Source: Aequorivita viscosa
GTDB lineage: Bacteria; Bacteroidota; Bacteroidia; Flavobacteriales; Flavobacteriaceae
DNA: 57,677 nt
NCBI RefSeq assembly: GCF_900106795.1
Contig: NZ_FNNS01000003.1
Span: forward strand, 146,944 to 204,620
Direction: 5' to 3'
In this document: piece by piece, positions 1,982-46,882 of the stretch
Layout: each line of letters starts with the position of its first letter
How positions within the stretch are numbered: position 1 is the stretch's first letter
Program-made: the position numbers and the translations under genes
The notes under the pieces: generated by a model
Seen by the model: the letters and a program-made list of their open reading frames with translations, nothing else
Told to the model about the DNA's origin: nothing
The model's database searches: none

Positions 1982-2638
1982 TTAAGTAGTCTGCACAAAG
2001 AGGCTTTCAGCAATTTTATGCGAAATGAAAAACTGATTGTTTCCAACTCGTATTATCATAGAACCATCAAAAAATTCCTTTCCAAGAACTAAGATTTTGG
2101 TGCCGATGCTAATTTCTTTTTTATCTAAGTACTGAAGAAATTCTGGACTCGATTCTTTTACACCTACACAGACCCCTTGTTGGTTTTTGTCTAATTCGGA
2201 AAGCAATTTCTTTTCGGTGCGTTTTAAAACTCCGTGTTCATCAGGAATAGGATCTCCGTGGGGATCAAAATCGGGGTTGCCTAAAAATTCGTTGAGGCGT
2301 ATTATGAGTTCCTCGGACTGTATATGTTCTAGTTGTTCTGCTATTTCGTGAACCTCATCCCAGTGAAAGTTCAATTTATCTACTAAAAACACCTCCCATA
2401 AGCGATGTTTCCTAATAACATATGCAGCAAGTTTTTTTCCTTCGTCTGTAAGCTGAACGCCCTTGTATCGCTTATAAACAAGCACATCTTTTTCAGCTAA
2501 TTTTTGAACCATATCTGTCACAGATGATGGCTTTGTATCCATGCGCTCAGCAATGGCGTTTGTGCTCACTTCACCTCCATTTTCAAATTCTAAATGAAAA
2601 ATGGCCTTCAAATAATTTTCTTCTGCAAGGGTCATCAT
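1982..2638 (-). CDS. DtxR/MntR-family metal-dependent transcriptional regulator
   Basis: A 218-residue repressor of the DtxR family. Residues 1-60 are a winged helix-turn-helix (TLAEENYLKAIF ... TKPSSVTDMVQKL), residues 65-140 the dimerisation and metal-binding domain with HRLWEVFL, DEVHEIAEQLEH and HGDPIP, and residues 145-215 a FeoA/SH3-like C-terminal domain. The family represses Mn or Fe uptake genes when the metal is bound. It lies between the ABC transporter genes on its own strand and a divergent TonB receptor, both plausible targets. Two adjacent ATG codons open the frame; the first is used here. A TATCTTTG -7 box lies 17 bp upstream of it. Whether it senses Mn or Fe is not decided by the sequence. 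Confidence 0.92.
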   Translation of the reverse strand: MMTLAEENYLKAIFHLEFENGGEVSTNAIAERMDTKPSSVTDMVQKLAEKDVLVYKRYKGVQLTDEGKKLAAYVIRKHRLWEVFLVDKLNFHWDEVHEIAEQLEHIQSEELIIRLNEFLGNPDFDPHGDPIPDEHGVLKRTEKKLLSELDKNQQGVCVGVKESSPEFLQYLDKKEISIGTKILVLGKEFFDGSMIIRVGNNQFFISHKIAESLFVQTT

Positions 2639-2654
2639 CGGCTTTAAGTTTGTG

Positions 2655-2662
2655 CAAAGATA
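2655..2662 (-). promoter_or_regulatory. -7 promoter box for the DtxR-type regulator
   Basis: TATCTTTG on the minus strand matches the Bacteroidota -7 consensus TAnnTTTG, 17 bp upstream of the regulator's ATG. Confidence 0.55.
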
Positions 2663-2674
2663 TGTTTTTTTAAA

Positions 2675-2717
2675 TTAAAATATATTTTAAGCTTTGCCTA
2701 AAATTATAATTAGACAA
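2675..2717. promoter_or_regulatory. Palindrome and MntR-like dyad in the divergent promoter
   Basis: A perfect 16-bp AT palindrome TTAAAATATATTTTAA at 2675-2690 is followed by TTTGCCTAA (2693-2701) and TTAGACAA (2710-2717), which form an imperfect dyad ending one base before the TonB receptor ATG. The arrangement suits autoregulation of the metal regulator and control of the receptor. No Shine-Dalgarno sequence precedes the receptor start. Confidence 0.45.
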
Positions 2718-2718
2718 T

Positions 2719-4989
2719 ATGAATAATAAATTTACTTGGTTGAAATCACTGATTGTTTTGATGACAACTTCTGCAATTGCTCAAACAACTCTTAGCGGTA
2801 TTGTATCTAGTAATGGAGAACCTCTTCCCTTTGCAAATGTGTATATATCTAAACTCAGCAAAGGTGCTGTGTCTGATGAGGACGGAAATTATACCATCCT
2901 GAATATTCCAAACGGCACATATTCCTTATCAGCTTCATTTGCTGGATATGGAAAAGAGTCGAAAACTGTGGTTCTCTCTGGAAATACTAAAGAAGTGAAT
3001 TTCGATTTAAAAGAGGATAATAGCTTAAATGAAGTTGTTATCAGTGGAACATTAAAACCTGTTCTACGAATTGAAAGCCCCGTACCTGTTGAAGTCTACA
3101 CGCCTACATTTTTAAAGAAGAATCCTACTCCTAGTGTTTTTGACGCATTGCAGAATGTAAACGGAGTTCGACCACAATTAAACTGCAATGTTTGTAATAC
3201 TGGCGATATTCACATTAACGGGTTAGAAGGTCCGTACACCTTGGTGCTTATTGACGGGATGCCCATAGTTAGTGGTCTTTCCACGGTTTATGGCCTTTCT
3301 GGAATTCCAAATTCATTGATTGAACAAGTGGAAATTGTGAAAAGACCAGCTTCTTCCTTGTATGGTAGTGAGGCAGTTGGCGGCTTGATTAACGTAATTA
3401 CCAAATTGCCCGAATACGCTCCTCGACTCTCCGTAGATGCGTTTGGGACAACTTGGGGTGAGGTAAACTTCGACCTCGGATTGAAGCATGATTTTGGGAA
3501 AGCTTCGGCTATTTTGGGTGCAAACTACTACAATTACTCCAATCCCAAAGATGGAAATAATGACAATTTTACTGATGTAACCCTTCAGGATCGAATATCT
3601 TTATTCAACAAATGGAGTTTTAAACGGAAAGATAACCGAATAGCTTCCTTGGCGGGACGTTTTTTCTATGAAGATCGTTGGGGAGGAGAAATGAACTGGA
3701 ACCCTTCCTTTCGTGGTGGGGATGAGGTGTATGGAGAAAGTATTTACACCGCTCGGTATGAATTATTGGGAAGTTACCAACTTCCCGTGAGCGAAAAAAT
3801 CCTTTTCAATTTCTCCTATACCGATCACGACCAAAACTCGGTTTATGGCGATGTTGAGTATATGGCGCAACAACGAATTGGGTTTGGACAATTCACTTGG
3901 GACAAAAAGTTTGGCAAACACGATATGCTCTTTGGAGTCGCTGGCCGATATAATTACTATGACGACAACACTACAGCTACTGCAAATATCGAATACAATG
4001 AGCCAGAGGAAATTATGATTCCATCTGTGTTTGTGCAAGACGAATACAAATTTAATGACAAGCACACGCTTTTGGCAGGAGCTAGATATGATTATGATGA
4101 AAGGCACGGAAGCATTTTTACTCCCCGATTGGCATATCGTTTTAAGTTATCTGAAAATGACATAATCCGGCTCAACACAGGAACTGGATTTCGGGTTGTG
4201 AATTTATTTACGGAAGAGCATGCCACACTTACTGGAGCTCGTGAAGTAATAATTGAAGGAGAATTAGATCCAGAACGCAGTTATAACATGAATTTGAACT
4301 ATTTAAAAAAGCTATATTTCAAAGGAGGAACTATGTTGAATTTTGAAGCCTCTGCTTGGTACACATATTTCACCAATGCTATTTTACCCGATTATGATAC
4401 CAATCCGAATCAGATTATTTATTCAAACTTAGATGGAAATGCCATTTCAAAAGGGATAGGTTTTAATATGGATGCCCATTTTTCGAATCGGTTTAAGGCT
4501 ATTCTAGGATTTACGTATCAAGATGTAACCACTACGGAAAGTGGAGAAACGAGTCAGCAGATTCTTACAGAAAAGTATAGTGGTACTTGGGCCTTGACCT
4601 ATCGTATTTTCAAATACAATTTATCAATAGATTACACGGGCAACTTGTTTGGGCCAATGCGCCTTCCTCTTTTAAGCGAATTAGATCCACGACCAGAATA
4701 TAGTCCAACGTGGAGTATTCAGAACATTCAATTTACGTATGATGGAATTAAGAATGTTGAACTCTACGGTGGAGTGAAAAACATTTTAGATTGGACGCCA
4801 GCGAAAAACGCTCCTTTCCTAATTTCAAGAGCAAACGATCCATTTGATAAGGAAGTGGTTTTTGACAATTCAGGAAATGCAGTAGCTACACCAAATAACC
4901 CGTATGCGTTAACCTTCGATCCCAACTATGTATATGCCCCAAATCAAGGAATTCGCGGCTTTTTCGGAATTCGCTATACGTTGCTTTAA
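2719..4989 (+). CDS. TonB-dependent outer-membrane receptor
   Basis: A 756-residue outer-membrane transporter. Residues 1-22 are a signal peptide ending AIAQ, residues 25-105 a carboxypeptidase-D-like beta-sandwich (CarboxypepD_reg-like, typical of Bacteroidota receptors), then a plug domain with GLEGPYTLVLIDGMP near residue 168 and the SSLYGSEAVGGLINV motif near 212, and a long beta-barrel ending in GIRYTLL with a terminal hydrophobic residue. The NCNVCNTGD stretch near residue 155 has a cysteine pair often seen in metal-related receptors. It is divergent from the DtxR-type regulator and shares operator-like words with the metal ABC genes, so it probably moves a metal or metal complex across the outer membrane. 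The substrate is not identified. Confidence 0.92.
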   Translation: MNNKFTWLKSLIVLMTTSAIAQTTLSGIVSSNGEPLPFANVYISKLSKGAVSDEDGNYTILNIPNGTYSLSASFAGYGKESKTVVLSGNTKEVNFDLKEDNSLNEVVISGTLKPVLRIESPVPVEVYTPTFLKKNPTPSVFDALQNVNGVRPQLNCNVCNTGDIHINGLEGPYTLVLIDGMPIVSGLSTVYGLSGIPNSLIEQVEIVKRPASSLYGSEAVGGLINVITKLPEYAPRLSVDAFGTTWGEVNFDLGLKHDFGKASAILGANYYNYSNPKDGNNDNFTDVTLQDRISLFNKWSFKRKDNRIASLAGRFFYEDRWGGEMNWNPSFRGGDEVYGESIYTARYELLGSYQLPVSEKILFNFSYTDHDQNSVYGDVEYMAQQRIGFGQFTWDKKFGKHDMLFGVAGRYNYYDDNTTATANIEYNEPEEIMIPSVFVQDEYKFNDKHTLLAGARYDYDERHGSIFTPRLAYRFKLSENDIIRLNTGTGFRVVNLFTEEHATLTGAREVIIEGELDPERSYNMNLNYLKKLYFKGGTMLNFEASAWYTYFTNAILPDYDTNPNQIIYSNLDGNAISKGIGFNMDAHFSNRFKAILGFTYQDVTTTESGETSQQILTEKYSGTWALTYRIFKYNLSIDYTGNLFGPMRLPLLSELDPRPEYSPTWSIQNIQFTYDGIKNVELYGGVKNILDWTPAKNAPFLISRANDPFDKEVVFDNSGNAVATPNNPYALTFDPNYVYAPNQGIRGFFGIRYTLL

Positions 4990-5086
4990 TGTAAAAGTGT
5001 TTCAAACCTACCAGGTCTTCTTTGTTTGCTGAAAAGCTTCGGCGGATAAGTTTCGACTTGTTGGGTTTTGGTACGATGTACCGAAG

Positions 5087-5815
5087 CTATATCCCCCGTT
5101 CCTTACGAATCTGGTCATAAGCTTCCTGTACTTTCTTGAATTTTTCCTCACCTCCTTTTCGGTGGGCTTCATCCAAATGCGTGAGTTTGTCTGGATGGTA
5201 TTTTTTTGCCATAGCTCGGAATGCGTTTTTAACCTCGGCATCGGTTGCATTACGGTCAATCTCCAAGATTTTGTAGGCACTGTCAGGGTTTTTGAAAAAC
5301 ATTGCTTTAATGCTCTCAAAATCGCGTGAAAAAACACCTAAGAAACCAGCTATTTTATTTATTTCATTTACCTCAAGTTCCGAAACACGGCCATCGGCAT
5401 TTGCTATGCTGAATAAAAAGTGAAGAATCTGCAATCGGCTTTCATAACGAGTCCGTTGGCGAAGAAGATTACAAATGTTTTGTGCGGATATTTCACGCTT
5501 TTTAATTACCTCATTAAACAGACGGAACGTTGCATTGGCGCGTTCCTTTCCATACGCTTGTACAAAATACTGGCGTACGTAGTCGAGTTCTGTTTGGCTC
5601 ACATTTCCATCGGCTTTAATAACCAAGGAAGCTAATGAAAGCAAATGCAGCTCAAAGTCGGCAGGCGAGACAGTTTTGGATGGCCCAAACGCAGAAGCAG
5701 ATGTTCTCGTTTTTACAGTCATTCTGTCGAGAATTCCTCCAATTAAAAAACCAGCTATTGCTCCGGGAAAACGGTAAAAAAGATAGCCTAGAATTGCAAG
5801 GATCCAACGAAGCAT
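5087..5815 (-). CDS. DjlA-like membrane co-chaperone: TerB plus J domain
   Basis: A 242-residue protein with an N-terminal membrane helix (residues 4-28), a TerB-like helical domain (about 45-165, with acidic ADGNVS and ADGRVS loops) and a C-terminal J domain with HPDK near residue 210. The order is that of DjlA-type co-chaperones, which stimulate DnaK from the inner membrane. The frame is open upstream to a TTG at 5848, but that TTG is the last three bases of a perfect TACCTTTG promoter box, so the ATG at 5815 is the start chosen. The gene converges on the TonB receptor. A partner cannot be named from the neighbourhood. Confidence 0.88.
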   Translation of the reverse strand: MLRWILAILGYLFYRFPGAIAGFLIGGILDRMTVKTRTSASAFGPSKTVSPADFELHLLSLASLVIKADGNVSQTELDYVRQYFVQAYGKERANATFRLFNEVIKKREISAQNICNLLRQRTRYESRLQILHFLFSIANADGRVSELEVNEINKIAGFLGVFSRDFESIKAMFFKNPDSAYKILEIDRNATDAEVKNAFRAMAKKYHPDKLTHLDEAHRKGGEEKFKKVQEAYDQIRKERGI

Positions 5816-32210: not shown

Positions 32211-32239
32211 CCTGCAAGGTCTCTTTTTGACCTTGTAGG
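32211..32239. repeat. REP-like palindrome
   Basis: CCTGCAAGGTCTC and GACCTTGTAGG arms; intact member of the family, 82 bp before the EI24-domain gene. Confidence 0.85.
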
Positions 32240-32320
32240 TATAAAAATAAATAACTTAAAAGCCTTAAAAATCCTGCTGGCCATTGATACAAACCAAATC
32301 CAAAAAAGGTGAAAACTGGA

Positions 32321-33109
32321 ATGACAGTCCTGAAAAACATCCTAAAAGGCATAACGGCATACACAGATGCATTCAAGCTCATTGGTGTTTTGAAGCTTTG
32401 GAAGTATTTTGCAATTCCAATGATGATTAGTTTTTTAACTGCGGTGTTAATTGGTTTTTTAGCTTGGGGCCTGAATGATGATTTGGGCATTTACATTTCA
32501 AAAATATGGTTTTGGGAATGGGGTGCGGAAACATTTAGAGTCATCAGCAATTTTATTGGCGCACTGATTATTATCGCATTAGGATTGATGCTCTATCGCC
32601 ATATTATAATGGCTCTGAGCGCACCTTTTATGAGTCCCGTTTCAGAAAAAATTGAAAAGCACTTATACGGAATAGCATCAGCCCACAACCACCGAAACAC
32701 ATCAAACGCGTCGCAATTATGGCGTGGTGTGAGAATAAATGTGCGAAATTTAATGATGGAATTGCTATTTACGATTCCGATTCTTTTGATAGGATTTATA
32801 CCTGTAATCGGGATTGTTTCTGCTGTTCTATTATTTTTAGTGCAGAGCTATTACGCAGGATTCGGGAATATGGATTACACCTTAGAACGGCATTTTAAAT
32901 ATTCCGAAAGCATTGAGTTTGTCCGTAAAAACCGAGGTTTGGCCATCGGTAATGGAATTGTCTTTATGCTCATGCTTTTAATTCCTGTTGTAGGAATAAT
33001 TTTAGTGCTGCCACTATCGGTGACGGCGGCGAGCACAGAAACCTTAAGAGTTTTGGAGAAATCTAAAAAGCTGAACATTTCTTCCTGCAAGGTCTCCAAG
33101 ACCTTGTAG
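32321..33109 (+). CDS. EI24-domain membrane protein with a REP-encoded C-terminus
   Basis: A 262-residue integral membrane protein of the EI24/CysZ-like group, with five or six hydrophobic segments (IPMMISFLTAVLIGFL near residue 37, VISNFIGALIIIALGLML near 80, LLFTIPILLIGFIPVIGIV near 150, GIVFMLMLLIPVVGIILVL near 215). The ATG at 32321 is preferred to a GTG four codons earlier. The last ten residues, SSCKVSKTL, and the TAG stop are encoded by the REP palindrome at 33084-33110, so the original end of the gene has been replaced. Some bacteria keep EI24 proteins in sulfate uptake; here its position in the hem cluster suggests a heme- or porphyrin-linked role, not proven. Confidence 0.85.
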   Translation: MTVLKNILKGITAYTDAFKLIGVLKLWKYFAIPMMISFLTAVLIGFLAWGLNDDLGIYISKIWFWEWGAETFRVISNFIGALIIIALGLMLYRHIIMALSAPFMSPVSEKIEKHLYGIASAHNHRNTSNASQLWRGVRINVRNLMMELLFTIPILLIGFIPVIGIVSAVLLFLVQSYYAGFGNMDYTLERHFKYSESIEFVRKNRGLAIGNGIVFMLMLLIPVVGIILVLPLSVTAASTETLRVLEKSKKLNISSCKVSKTL

Positions 33110-33110
33110 G
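33084..33110. repeat. REP-like palindrome overlapping the EI24 gene end
   Basis: CCTGCAAGGTCTCC and the matching AGACCTTGTAGG arm. It is translated as the C-terminus and stop codon of the EI24-domain protein. Confidence 0.9.
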
Positions 33111-33129
33111 TATATTAAATAGCCCAATT

Positions 33130-33234
33130 ATGAAATCAGAAACAAAGCAAACTCATTCCAAGACTTCCTGCAAGGTCTTATTCCAGCACTTTAATGTAAC
33201 GACGGACAAGTCAGACCTTGTAGGTGTTTTATAA
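33130..33234 (+). CDS. 34-codon micro-ORF in the REP array (first)
   Basis: It begins MKSETKQTHSKTSCKV and runs through a REP to a stop after GVL. The start region copies that of the RAYT gene, so it is a repeat by-product, possibly translated. Not recognised as a functional gene. Confidence 0.3.
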   Translation: MKSETKQTHSKTSCKVLFQHFNVTTDKSDLVGVL

Positions 33235-33244
33235 CATCCGAATT

Positions 33245-33289
33245 ATGAATCTAGAAAAATCTCATTATTACCACATTTCAAATAAAGAT
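33245..33289 (+). pseudogene. RAYT N-terminal fragment
   Basis: MNLEKSHYYHISNKD followed by a stop corresponds to the RAYT start MNLETIEQSHYYHIYNRG with a 9-bp deletion and decay beyond. It shows that the transposase start was duplicated upstream of the present gene. Confidence 0.7.
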
Positions 33290-33487
33290 TAAAGAAAAAC
33301 ACATTTTGGGTGCAGACCTACAAGGAGGTTTTGCTGAAAAAGCAAAACGACACCTTGCAGGAAAAACGCTCAATTGCCAACCCGCATGCTGGACGGGGTT
33401 CCAAGATTTCCTGCAAGGTCTTCCTGCCGGACTCAACTGTAACGGCGAACAAGTCAATACCTTGTAGGTATATTAAATAGCCAAATT

Positions 33488-33592
33488 ATGAATCTAGAAA
33501 CAGAGACAACTCATTCCAAGACTGCCTGCAAGGTCTCCAAGACTTCCTGCAAGGTCTCCAAGACTTCCTGCAAGGTCTCCAAGACCTTGTAG
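33488..33592 (+). CDS. 34-codon micro-ORF in the REP array (second)
   Basis: MNLETETTHSKTACK opens the frame and the KTSCKVS heptad then repeats; the last REP supplies the TAG stop. It has the same length as the first micro-ORF and the same KTSCKV core. Translation is not shown. Confidence 0.3.
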   Translation: MNLETETTHSKTACKVSKTSCKVSKTSCKVSKTL

Positions 33593-33611
33593 GTATAATA
33601 ACAGCTAAATT

Positions 33612-35345
33612 ATGAATCTAGAAACAATAGAACAATCCCATTATTACCATATATACAACCGTGGCATAAATGGAACGAATATTTTTAAAACAGAAGAAAA
33701 CAAACGATATTTTCTTCAACTGTTCGGTAAATATGTTGCTCCGAGAGTATCGGTTTTTGGCTATTGTTTAATGGATAATCATTTTCACTTCTTGATTAGA
33801 GTAGAATCGGAACCAGAAGAATTCACCCAAGCAATGTCTAATTTTTTTAATGCCTATGCAAAAGCATTTAATAAATTTAGTGGGCGAACCGGAAGTTTAT
33901 TTGAAAAACACTTTAAGCGAAAAAAAATAGTTGACGAAAGATATCTAAGAAATCTCTTAATTTATATTCATATTAATCCCGAAGAAATTCAGGATTATAC
34001 GAACTATAAGTTTTCCTCGCTTCACCATTATTTGAATGATAATCAACCAGAATATTTTAAACTTTCAAAAGAATATGTAATTGAGAATATTTTTGATTCG
34101 GTAGAAAACATGGCATTTATACATAAAGGGGGGATTAATTTTAACGCGGAGTTAGGGGGAAGGGAAGACCTACAAGGAGCCCCTGCAGAAAAAGCGGGAG
34201 AACACCTTGCAGGAAAAACCTCTGATAGGAAAACTGCAGAACATCTTGAAGAGAGAAACTCTGACTTTGAAGATCGTGTAGATAATGGGGCCCCAGAACG
34301 GCAATCCTGCCCACCGAACAGGCAGGGTGTTGTCAACGAAGGAGCCTCTGACCTGAAAGGTGTTGTCGACGAAGGAGCCTCTGACCTGCAAGGTGTTGTC
34401 GACGAAGGAGACCTCCTTGTAGGTCTAAACCCTAATATTACTATGAAACAACAATTCGTACAATACATAAAAAACCTACAAAATCAAATCACTTCCGCTT
34501 TGGAAGAAATTGATGGGAAAGCAAAGTTCCAAGAAGATATATGGGTTCGCAAAGAAGGCGGAGGCGGACAAACCCGTGTTATTGAAAACGGAAACGTTTT
34601 TGAAAAAGGCGGTGTAAATATCAGTGAGGTTCACGGAAAACTGCCTGAGAGCATGCAAGCGTATTTCGGCGTAAAAGACGCTGACTTTTTTGCCTGTGGG
34701 CTTAGCTTAGTACTTCATCCAAAAAACCCAATGGTGCCAACCGTACATGCCAACTGGCGCTATTTTGAAATGTATGATTCTGCTGGTAATATCGTGGACA
34801 GCTGGTTTGGTGGCGGACAGGATTTAACGCCGTACTATCTTTTTGAAGAAGATGCCAAGCATTTTCACCAAGTCTGTAAAACCGCTTGTGATAAACATTC
34901 TCCTAAATTTTACGACACCTACAAAAAACGTTGTGATGAATACTTTTGGAATTCACATCGAAATGAAGCTCGTGGAGTAGGAGGATTGTTTTTTGATTAT
35001 TTGAAGCAAACTGAGGAGATGAAGATGCAAGATTGGTATAATTTTGTAACCGAAGTAGGAAATAGCTTTTTAGAATGTTACGTTCCTATTGTGGACAAAA
35101 GGAAAGATCTTCCTAATACTGATGCAAACAGAATTTGGCAAGAAATCCGTCGTGGTCGTTATGTAGAATTTAATCTAGTTCACGATAAAGGAACCTTGTT
35201 CGGCCTAAAAACCAATGGAAGAATTGAAAGTATTTTGATGAGCTTGCCTCCGCACGTTCAATGGAAATATGATCATCATCCGGAGCCAGGAAGCGAGGAA
35301 GAAAAATTGGTCGAAGTATTAAAAAACCCGAAAAATTGGGTCTGA
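33612..35345 (+). CDS. RAYT transposase fused in frame to HemF
   Basis: One 577-codon frame. Residues 1-180 are a REP-associated tyrosine transposase (Y1_Tnp/TnpA_REP): HYYHIYNRG near 10, the HUH motif NHFHFLI with His57 and His59, and LLIYIHINP near 118 where Tyr118 is the likely nucleophile. Residues 181-277 are a low-complexity linker made from translated REP units and two copies of an 11-residue repeat (EGASDLKGVVD, EGASDLQGVVD). Residues 278-577 are a complete HemF. No stop codon separates them. HemF can also be started internally at ATG 34443. The gene lies between the EI24 gene and the helicase, inside the heme cluster. A fusion protein, or read-through plus internal initiation, are both possible. 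Confidence 0.9.
   Translation: MNLETIEQSHYYHIYNRGINGTNIFKTEENKRYFLQLFGKYVAPRVSVFGYCLMDNHFHFLIRVESEPEEFTQAMSNFFNAYAKAFNKFSGRTGSLFEKHFKRKKIVDERYLRNLLIYIHINPEEIQDYTNYKFSSLHHYLNDNQPEYFKLSKEYVIENIFDSVENMAFIHKGGINFNAELGGREDLQGAPAEKAGEHLAGKTSDRKTAEHLEERNSDFEDRVDNGAPERQSCPPNRQGVVNEGASDLKGVVDEGASDLQGVVDEGDLLVGLNPNITMKQQFVQYIKNLQNQITSALEEIDGKAKFQEDIWVRKEGGGGQTRVIENGNVFEKGGVNISEVHGKLPESMQAYFGVKDADFFACGLSLVLHPKNPMVPTVHANWRYFEMYDSAGNIVDSWFGGGQDLTPYYLFEEDAKHFHQVCKTACDKHSPKFYDTYKKRCDEYFWNSHRNEARGVGGLFFDYLKQTEEMKMQDWYNFVTEVGNSFLECYVPIVDKRKDLPNTDANRIWQEIRRGRYVEFNLVHDKGTLFGLKTNGRIESILMSLPPHVQWKYDHHPEPGSEEEKLVEVLKNPKNWV
34169..34213. repeat. REP-like palindrome within the fusion gene
   Basis: Nested form: outer CCTACAAGG / CCTTGCAGG, inner CCCCTGC-like stem. 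It is translated as residues 186-200 of the fusion linker. Confidence 0.8.
34325..34423. repeat. 33-bp tandem repeats ending in a REP, in the linker
   Basis: A 33-bp unit GAAGGAGCCTCTGACCTG... occurs twice and is followed by the REP 34385-34423 (39 bp). The period is a multiple of three, so the reading frame is kept. The last copy is nearly identical to the REP directly after hemF. Confidence 0.85.
34443..35345 (+). CDS. hemF: Oxygen-dependent coproporphyrinogen-III oxidase (HemF region)
   Basis: A complete 300-residue HemF that turns coproporphyrinogen III into protoporphyrinogen IX using oxygen. The usual start M-x-QFVQYIKNLQ is at 34443. Conserved stretches are GGGGQTRVIENGNVFEKGGVN near residue 38, HPKNPMVPTVHANWRYFE near 95 with the catalytic His/Asp region, WFGGGQDLTPYY near 122, RNEARGVGGLFFDY near 180 and EFNLVHDKGTLFGLKT near 241. 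The domain itself is undamaged; only its upstream context is altered by the RAYT. It sits in the normal place for hemF in this operon type. Confidence 0.95.
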   Translation: MKQQFVQYIKNLQNQITSALEEIDGKAKFQEDIWVRKEGGGGQTRVIENGNVFEKGGVNISEVHGKLPESMQAYFGVKDADFFACGLSLVLHPKNPMVPTVHANWRYFEMYDSAGNIVDSWFGGGQDLTPYYLFEEDAKHFHQVCKTACDKHSPKFYDTYKKRCDEYFWNSHRNEARGVGGLFFDYLKQTEEMKMQDWYNFVTEVGNSFLECYVPIVDKRKDLPNTDANRIWQEIRRGRYVEFNLVHDKGTLFGLKTNGRIESILMSLPPHVQWKYDHHPEPGSEEEKLVEVLKNPKNWV

Positions 35346-35384
35346 CCTGCAAGGTGTTGTCGACGAAGGACGCCTCCTTGTAGG
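35346..35384. repeat. REP-like palindrome after hemF
   Basis: Thirty-nine bases starting directly after the hemF stop TGA. It is almost identical to the REP at 34385-34423, so hemF is flanked by direct copies. Confidence 0.85.
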
Positions 35385-35413
35385 TCTTTTCCAAACATCT
35401 ATCAGGTCCTACT

Positions 35414-35454
35414 CCTGCAAGGTGTTCCCGCTTTTTCAGCGGGCTCCTTGTAGG
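35414..35454. repeat. REP-like palindrome, nested form
   Basis: Outer CCTGCAAGG / CCTTGTAGG, inner CCCGCT / AGCGGG around TTTTC. Confidence 0.85.
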
Positions 35455-46729: not shown

Positions 46730-46756
46730 CCTGCAAGGTTTCAAAAACCTTGTAGG
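46730..46756. repeat. REP-like palindrome
   Basis: CCTGCAAGGTTTC and AAACCTTGTAGG arms, between the M13 peptidase and its terminator. Same short form as 1-27. Confidence 0.85.
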
Positions 46757-46765
46757 TATTGCCCT

Positions 46766-46806
46766 AAAAAAATGGCTGTTTCAGAAATTGAAGCAGCCAT
46801 TTTTTT
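46766..46806 (+). terminator. Rho-independent terminator of the M13 peptidase
   Basis: AAAAAATGGCTGTTTC and GAAGCAGCCATTTTTT form a stem of about 16 bp with one wobble pair and a 7-base loop, ending in a T run. Confidence 0.85.
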
Positions 46807-46855
46807 CGTTAATAATGCTCTGAAATAGTAGTTTATAGCAAGAGCATTTGTTTTT

Positions 46856-46882
46856 CCTGTAAGGTTTCCAAAACCTTGTAGG
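46856..46882. repeat. REP-like palindrome
   Basis: CCTGTAAGGTTT and AAACCTTGTAGG arms; one base differs from the copy at 1-27. It lies 26 bp beyond the end of the minus-strand gene at 46908. Confidence 0.85.

Follow-up and report, generated by a model that had tools for sequence, protein, structure and literature searches.

An in-frame RAYT–HemF fusion in Aequorivita viscosa and other Flavobacteriaceae, probably read through from a REPtron at the hemF start

In Aequorivita viscosa, a REP-associated tyrosine transposase (RAYT) and HemF share one open reading frame, and the same architecture was recovered at 33 distinct loci after removal of 9 repeats. Judged from sequence, this quite probably reflects a REPtron lineage that is resident at the hemF start and whose 3′ REP is read through into HemF, yielding one protein. 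The frame lies in a stretch of 57,677 nucleotides, referred to as the window, and extends from 33612 to 35345 with the stop codon TGA at 35343-35345. An earlier note on this DNA had reported an in-frame passage from RAYT to HemF without intervening stop, and all 577 codons indeed proved open. The gene order is hemA, hemC, hemD, hemE, a DUF6973 gene, an EI24/CysZ-like gene, the fusion, a helicase-like gene on the opposite strand, and hemB. The relevant features of the window are:

33612..35345, plus strand: RAYT–linker–HemF fusion frame, 577 residues and stop; architecture shared by 33 distinct loci
33612..34133, plus strand: RAYT domain (HUH/Y1 REP-associated tyrosine transposase), residues 1-174; NF047646 and PF01797 (each under its cutoff), 4er8 fold
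33777..33788, plus strand: HUH motif N-H-F-H (H57, H59); 23/23 aligned fused RAYTs, 32/33 in the larger set
33963..33965, plus strand: presumed catalytic tyrosine Y118; 23/23 aligned, tyrosine motif in 33/33
34134..34442, plus strand: linker with translated REP units; low-confidence stretch in the structure model
34169..34213, plus strand: linker REP unit, translated as DLQGAPAEKAGEHLAG; frame identical in the five fused Aequorivita
34326..34424, plus strand: 33-nt direct repeat of the linker, in three copies; the third 61% alike, the last containing the REP at 34385-34423
34443..35342, plus strand: HemF, oxygen-dependent coproporphyrinogen III oxidase; native start ATG 34443
33567..33593, no strand assigned: 5′ REP of the REPtron, a hairpin immediately 5′ of the RAYT start
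35346..35454, no strand assigned: two REP units directly 3′ of hemF (35346-35384 and 35414-35454)
33084..33593, no strand assigned: array of REPs together with three incomplete copies of the RAYT 5′ end, from about 33130, 33245 and 33488
32309..33109, plus strand: EI24/CysZ-like membrane protein gene, preceding the insert at the window locus

The partial RAYT copies at 33130, 33245 and 33488 stand in tandem 5′ of the true RAYT start, each preceded by a REP. More REP units occur in the window at 1-171, 32211-32239 and 46730-46882.

The N-terminal domain of the window protein was matched by the NCBIfam RAYT model NF047646 over residues 10-123 (40.1 bits, under the 80-bit cutoff), and its PF01797 score of 21.2 lies just below the cutoff of 23. 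The aligned fused RAYTs (23/23) match both models at E ≤ 0.01. A search of PDB sequences with the RAYT profile returned no match. The structure model of the RAYT domain (mean pLDDT 92.3) gave 4er8, in which a RAYT is complexed with a REP hairpin, as its top PDB fold match in Foldseek (E 8.3e-8, TM 0.60/0.63). The residues singled out in the earlier note, His57, His59 and Tyr118, are present and invariant in the 23 aligned fused RAYTs; Y118 is taken to be the catalytic tyrosine. Among the 33 distinct fusions, HUH is intact in 32 and the catalytic tyrosine motif in every one. The exception is L151 (genome G199), which carries a degraded HUH, N-Q-F-H, with one catalytic histidine lost and the frame still open. 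The window protein has NHFH and YIHINP where the motifs of subclass 2.4 are NH[IFV]H and YIxNNP; the other fusions mostly have NHFH or NHYH, with Y[IVT]HxN. NG86 dN/dS values ranged from 0.03 to 0.34 for RAYT (14 pairs), from 0.02 to 0.10 for HemF and from 0.16 to 1.93 for the short linker, with dS above about 1 counting as saturated. Purifying selection thus acts on the RAYT domain, which presumably still cuts REPs.

The linker of translated REP units that had been described from the letters alone was found again at 34169-34213 and 34385-34423, together with the 33-nt repeats at 34326-34424, and the RAYT gene of the window is flanked by REP hairpins, as expected of a REPtron. An AlphaFold2 model of the whole fusion (mean pLDDT 68.9, pTM 0.47) consists of two folded regions and, between them, a linker modelled with low confidence, in which residues 174-274 fall below a pLDDT of 50. 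Counted from RAYT residue 171, linker length varies between 18 and 106 residues across the 33 fusions. A strict REP pattern was present within 200 nt upstream at 20/33 fused against 0/96 unfused loci, inside the linker at 19/33 fused loci, and within 150 nt after hemF at 6/33 fused against 0/96 unfused loci. Of the 30 linkers scored, 25 share one reading frame of the REP half-site and the remaining five use another (three linkers were unscored); the deviating ones, L054, L055, L087, L099 and L150, belong to a single, Winogradskyella-type RAYT group. A single REP frame in all linkers was rejected on this count. The idea that each linker carries a perfect inverted repeat likewise found no support, as only 16/33 exceeded 20 shuffles and many REPs are imperfect. 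At the far end of the window fusion, the hemF stop TGA is part of the TCTGACC that opens the first downstream REP (35346-35384), and the segment 35341-35387 containing this stop codon is 96% identical to the linker REP 34380-34426.

REP hairpin copies number 31, 21, 14, 6 and 2 in the fused Aequorivita genomes versus 0-7 in 23 unfused ones, a comparison (p 0.002) that ignores kinship and other RAYTs; minus the copies at the hemF locus it gives p 0.013, again ignoring both. The hemF-locus copies were subtracted by hand: six counted in the window for G000 (the window genome), those of G023, G015 and G026 by position, and for G014 both copies, treated as hemF-locus copies without their being seen. 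The larger numbers of REP hairpins in fused genomes are compatible with an active RAYT.

That the fusion contains a complete HemF, another claim made at the outset, was borne out by PF01218 (Coprogen_oxidas), which covers residues 282-576 and profile positions 2-295 of 295 (E 3.2e-134, 446.7 bits versus a cutoff of 31.8). This part also matches NF003727 above cutoff, has the solved relatives 1tkl, 2aex and 8t7w, and is predicted to be a coproporphyrinogen oxidase with a complete domain. In L032, L036 and L099 a short in-frame insertion (PSTSLRPGEPR-like) was noticed within HemF, perhaps another translated repeat. We propose that a REPtron (REP – RAYT gene – REP) of the hemF-resident RAYT lineage sits directly 5′ of the hemF start codon; the RAYT lacks a stop of its own, the frame continuing through the 3′ REP into HemF. 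The product would then carry a Y1 endonuclease at its N-terminus and a coproporphyrinogen oxidase at its C-terminus, connected by a flexible linker that the REP encodes, with the RAYT and HemF domains probably working independently.

A genome search for further RAYT–HemF frames, as the earlier note had suggested, found them in many genera of Flavobacteriaceae. A single frame of this kind is present in 5 of 28 Aequorivita genomes, namely G000, G014, G015, G023 and G026; in this set, 27 genomes have a hemF match (G007 has none, and hemF of G019 lies at a contig end). A. sinensis shares the architecture. The fusion was also found in Algibacter, Winogradskyella, Hyunsoonleella and Flavivirga, among others, and a RAYT adjoining hemF but unfused in Flavobacterium, Paenimyroides and Seonamhaeicola. 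The scan for related loci was limited to the 80 best of 292; two of its six patterns are RAYT peptides, so that it is enriched for RAYT loci. In 397 Flavobacteriaceae genomes, searched with a profile of 23 fused RAYTs at E ≤ 1e-30 (a threshold that diverged RAYTs may escape), the fusion was found in 17, across 17 genus codes, and a close RAYT in 52; no non-fusion frame over 228 aa was seen among the matches listed. A draw of 395 genomes across the phylum gave, among the matches listed, three fusions, all in Flavobacteriaceae and none outside the family. Long hemF frames without a RAYT match in G121 and G402 are no fusions, ordinary upstream genes ending just before hemF, and the same applies to G155, where an ordinary gene precedes a hemF of 300 aa; this check took in these three genomes, with G058, G263 and G298 among the moderately extended frames set aside. 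In L061, L140 and L143, RAYT and hemF are separate genes that overlap or nearly touch. The RAYT of L061 (Seonamhaeicola aphaedonensis) equals that of L036 over the first 150 aa (site 5601-5630), and its overlap with hemF is out of frame because of four extra bases, AATC, at the junction.

Conservation of the fusion in other species and genera excludes a chance frame or a sequencing error, which had been named as a possible source of the open frame; with 33 distinct loci of the same architecture, including those of the one-contig genomes G015, G222 and G313, an artefact of sequencing or assembly is extremely improbable. A second reading concerns expression. HemF may be produced mainly from an internal start, at ATG 34443 in the window and at linker codons elsewhere, the fusion being a minor product. 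The candidate start pointed out earlier, ATG 34443, is present in the window, and position 1 of HemF is still ATG in 17/33 distinct fusions, including all five fused Aequorivita and hence the window species, so that a separate HemF could still be made there. The coupled but separate arrangements in L061, L140 and L143 also speak for two products. Conversely, the native codon is lost in 16/33 fusions with seven different replacements (9 ATC, 2 ATA, and one each of TGT, ACC, TTT, GTC and CTC), although ATC and ATA might be weak starts. Counted as codons other than ATG, GTG or TTG, this loss compares with 2 of 110 unfused rows (Fisher p 2e-10); 13 of the 110 have a RAYT close by and 97 do not, and a few genomes are counted twice among them, such as L037 and L038. 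Of the unfused rows, 103 start with ATG and five with TTG, and in the remaining two a Met closely precedes the position; when the fusions are restricted to the family draw, 11/17 have lost the start codon. Fifteen start-less fusions were scanned for alternative starts after the catalytic Tyr codon (L152 was left out), and 14 have another in-frame ATG, GTG or TTG, which favours internal initiation. In ten, only TTG or GTG occurs upstream of HemF, none nearer than −29 codons; an ATG is found at −36 in L041, at −27 in L156 and at −20 in L160, and a GTG at −2 in L138. In G218, by contrast, there is no in-frame ATG, GTG or TTG from the Tyr codon to HemF residue 25. Also against two products, the fused gene is the sole PF01218 gene in 13/13 genomes examined, eight of them start-less, which is half of the 16 start-less genomes; none of the 13 thus has a further hemF that could serve as a rescue. 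On balance, mainly internal initiation is considered rather unlikely. A polyprotein, translated whole and then cleaved in the linker into RAYT and HemF, is less likely still: the low model confidence and variable length of the linker would suit it, but no conserved motif was seen in a linker alignment judged by eye.

Translation of the joined frame as one protein thus remains the preferred reading, in graded form. In start-less lineages HemF is most likely made via the RAYT start, with the joined protein as probably the sole HemF source. For G218, with no alternative start up to HemF residue 25, HemF would therefore be made through the RAYT or as its cut product; for the other start-less lineages, translation through the RAYT is the simplest reading. 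The single polypeptide envisaged in the earlier note is accordingly well supported where the HemF start codon is lost, whereas for the window species it can only be inferred from the relatives, because ATG 34443 is kept.

The description of the heme step as essential was overstated. The oxygen-independent counterpart of HemF, hemN, scored above the family cutoff in 11/12 fused genomes, by which HemF as the only coproporphyrinogen oxidase was rejected; HemF is therefore probably needed mainly with oxygen present, and its loss would probably matter mostly under oxygen. The arrangement may persist since the RAYT would be expressed with heme synthesis and, as it were a hostage-taker, could presumably not be frameshifted without loss of HemF. 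More tentatively, the REPtron lineage may home to the hemF start, a selfish single-strand endonuclease becoming the obligatory N-terminus of the cell's only HemF, such that a frameshift costs aerobic heme synthesis. Several observations count against the main reading: HUH has decayed in L151 with the frame still open, the RAYT of the Flavobacterium and Paenimyroides relatives is linked to hemF yet unfused, RAYT and hemF form separate genes in L061, L140 and L143, four of seven full/empty pairs lack the copy of the hemF start at the left end, and five scored linkers deviate in REP frame.

With 4er8 as its best fold match, the fused RAYT domain is like Escherichia coli TnpA-REP and its REPtron. 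The RAYT of 4er8 is presumably that very protein, which to our knowledge is not fused to another enzyme. The HemF part is like ordinary HemF in having a complete domain, and unlike it in bearing an N-terminal transposase domain and in lacking its own start in 16/33 fusions. Host–transposase fusion genes, in which a transposase domain is joined to a host protein, exist in eukaryotes; the present case differs in being bacterial, in having a metabolic enzyme as partner and in still lying within its REPtron. Gene callers and studies of HemF in these bacteria may overlook the 170-residue Y1 domain, and RAYT–HemF fusion proteins may well be in databases already, unremarked. In the literature searched, judged by titles and the openings of abstracts, no description of a RAYT–HemF fusion was found. 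Passages of PMC6006769 (Quentin 2018) describe subclass 2.4 TnpA-REP (group 4 in the table) as having REPs within the gene without a break of frame. The fusion resembles this subclass, as characterized there, as a REP-flanked HUH/Y1 protein of Bacteroidetes. The in-frame REPs of subclass 2.4, however, are in these passages generally placed between HuH and Y, whereas that of the fusion comes after the C-terminal end of the RAYT and connects the latter with a metabolic enzyme. A passage of PMC6006769 also mentions that a few unexpectedly long proteins were discarded as gene fusions or annotation errors. In parts of PMC8049555, RAYTs are presented as single-copy, vertically inherited and domesticated, and also as long-lived single-copy transposases whose exact function is unknown, and the persistence of copied REP populations is treated as open. 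A RAYT lineage covalently tied to a core gene across genera would offer a concrete, testable answer for RAYT persistence, and the fusion suggests that a transposase's start codon may become necessary for making a central metabolic enzyme.

Eight fused/unfused pairs were aligned around the insertion site. No upstream alignment was obtained for L099/L070. In each of the remaining seven, the fused member has additional DNA that includes the RAYT and stops at the hemF start or within a few nt of it; relative to the empty site the insert is REP-RAYT-REP. On its left side the insert has a sharp edge in L044, L031, L032 and L146 and a less clear-cut one in L009, L005 and L156. The first 5-8 nt of hemF are present again at the left end in 3/7 pairs (L031, L032, L146) and absent from it in 4/7; L040 shares the copy of L031. 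In these three it looks as if the hemF start were an insertion target. The gene preceding the RAYT block differs among lineages (by eye), and close relatives often share it.

For the RAYT tree, 13 repeats and one short row were dropped beforehand. The 53 hemF-linked rows (33 fused, 16 adjoining hemF and 4 at about 1.6-2.7 kb) separate from 21 unlinked rows with support 98/95, and in 98% of 200 bootstrap trees; the unlinked rows are a sample of the best-scoring ones and include two other RAYTs of the window genome itself. L161 lies at 1.6 kb, and L034 is represented by the farther of two copies, about 2.7 kb before hemF. The HemF tree mainly follows genera, with fused and unfused rows mixed by 23 changes, at least 7 of them forced by starred branches. 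One clade of all fused HemFs was rejected (p 3e-81, 73-row quick tree), as was one clade of all fused RAYTs (p 4e-4). In Winogradskyella, W. vidalii (L033) and W. psychrotolerans (L054) have HemFs 97.7% identical and alignable flanks, and fused RAYTs of 49% identity.

Two further explanations bear on the origin of the arrangement. A single old insertion in the ancestor of the family, passed on by descent with numerous losses and a degree of lateral exchange in place of repeated insertion, is a serious contender that we rate somewhat below probable. It would account for one RAYT group at one locus and for the correlation of RAYT and HemF distances (Mantel r 0.58, with 0/2000 permutations as high); upstream genes are often shared as well, and the short start-codon repeats could permit clean loss. 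Still, AU tests reject agreement between RAYT and HemF in two places: the RAYT data reject a grouping of L033, L050 and L054 (p 2e-10), a group chosen from the HemF tree (SH-aLRT 89 there) after both trees had been seen, and agreement is likewise rejected for L151 (p 2e-4). Domestication, with the RAYT domain serving the host, for instance as a REP-binding hemF regulator or a heme-linked hairpin-processing factor, appears improbable. The purifying selection on the domain and the REPs at the hemF locus are in its favour, but the distribution on the HemF tree is patchy, with its 23 changes, and the RAYT type differs between close species. We conclude that the arrangement would stem partly from vertical descent, combined with repeated loss and with recurrent replacement or gain at this one position, be it by targeted insertion or by recombination across hemF; a part of vertical inheritance is favoured over pure homing because RAYT and HemF distances correlate. 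For the residence at hemF, we lean towards repeated gain or exchange plus losses over old linkage alone. Among individual loci, the HemF of L151 (G199) groups with Flavobacterium and its RAYT does not, and in L034 (Paenimyroides aquimaris) two RAYT copies stand in a row before hemF, at 2603-3112 and 5001-5510.
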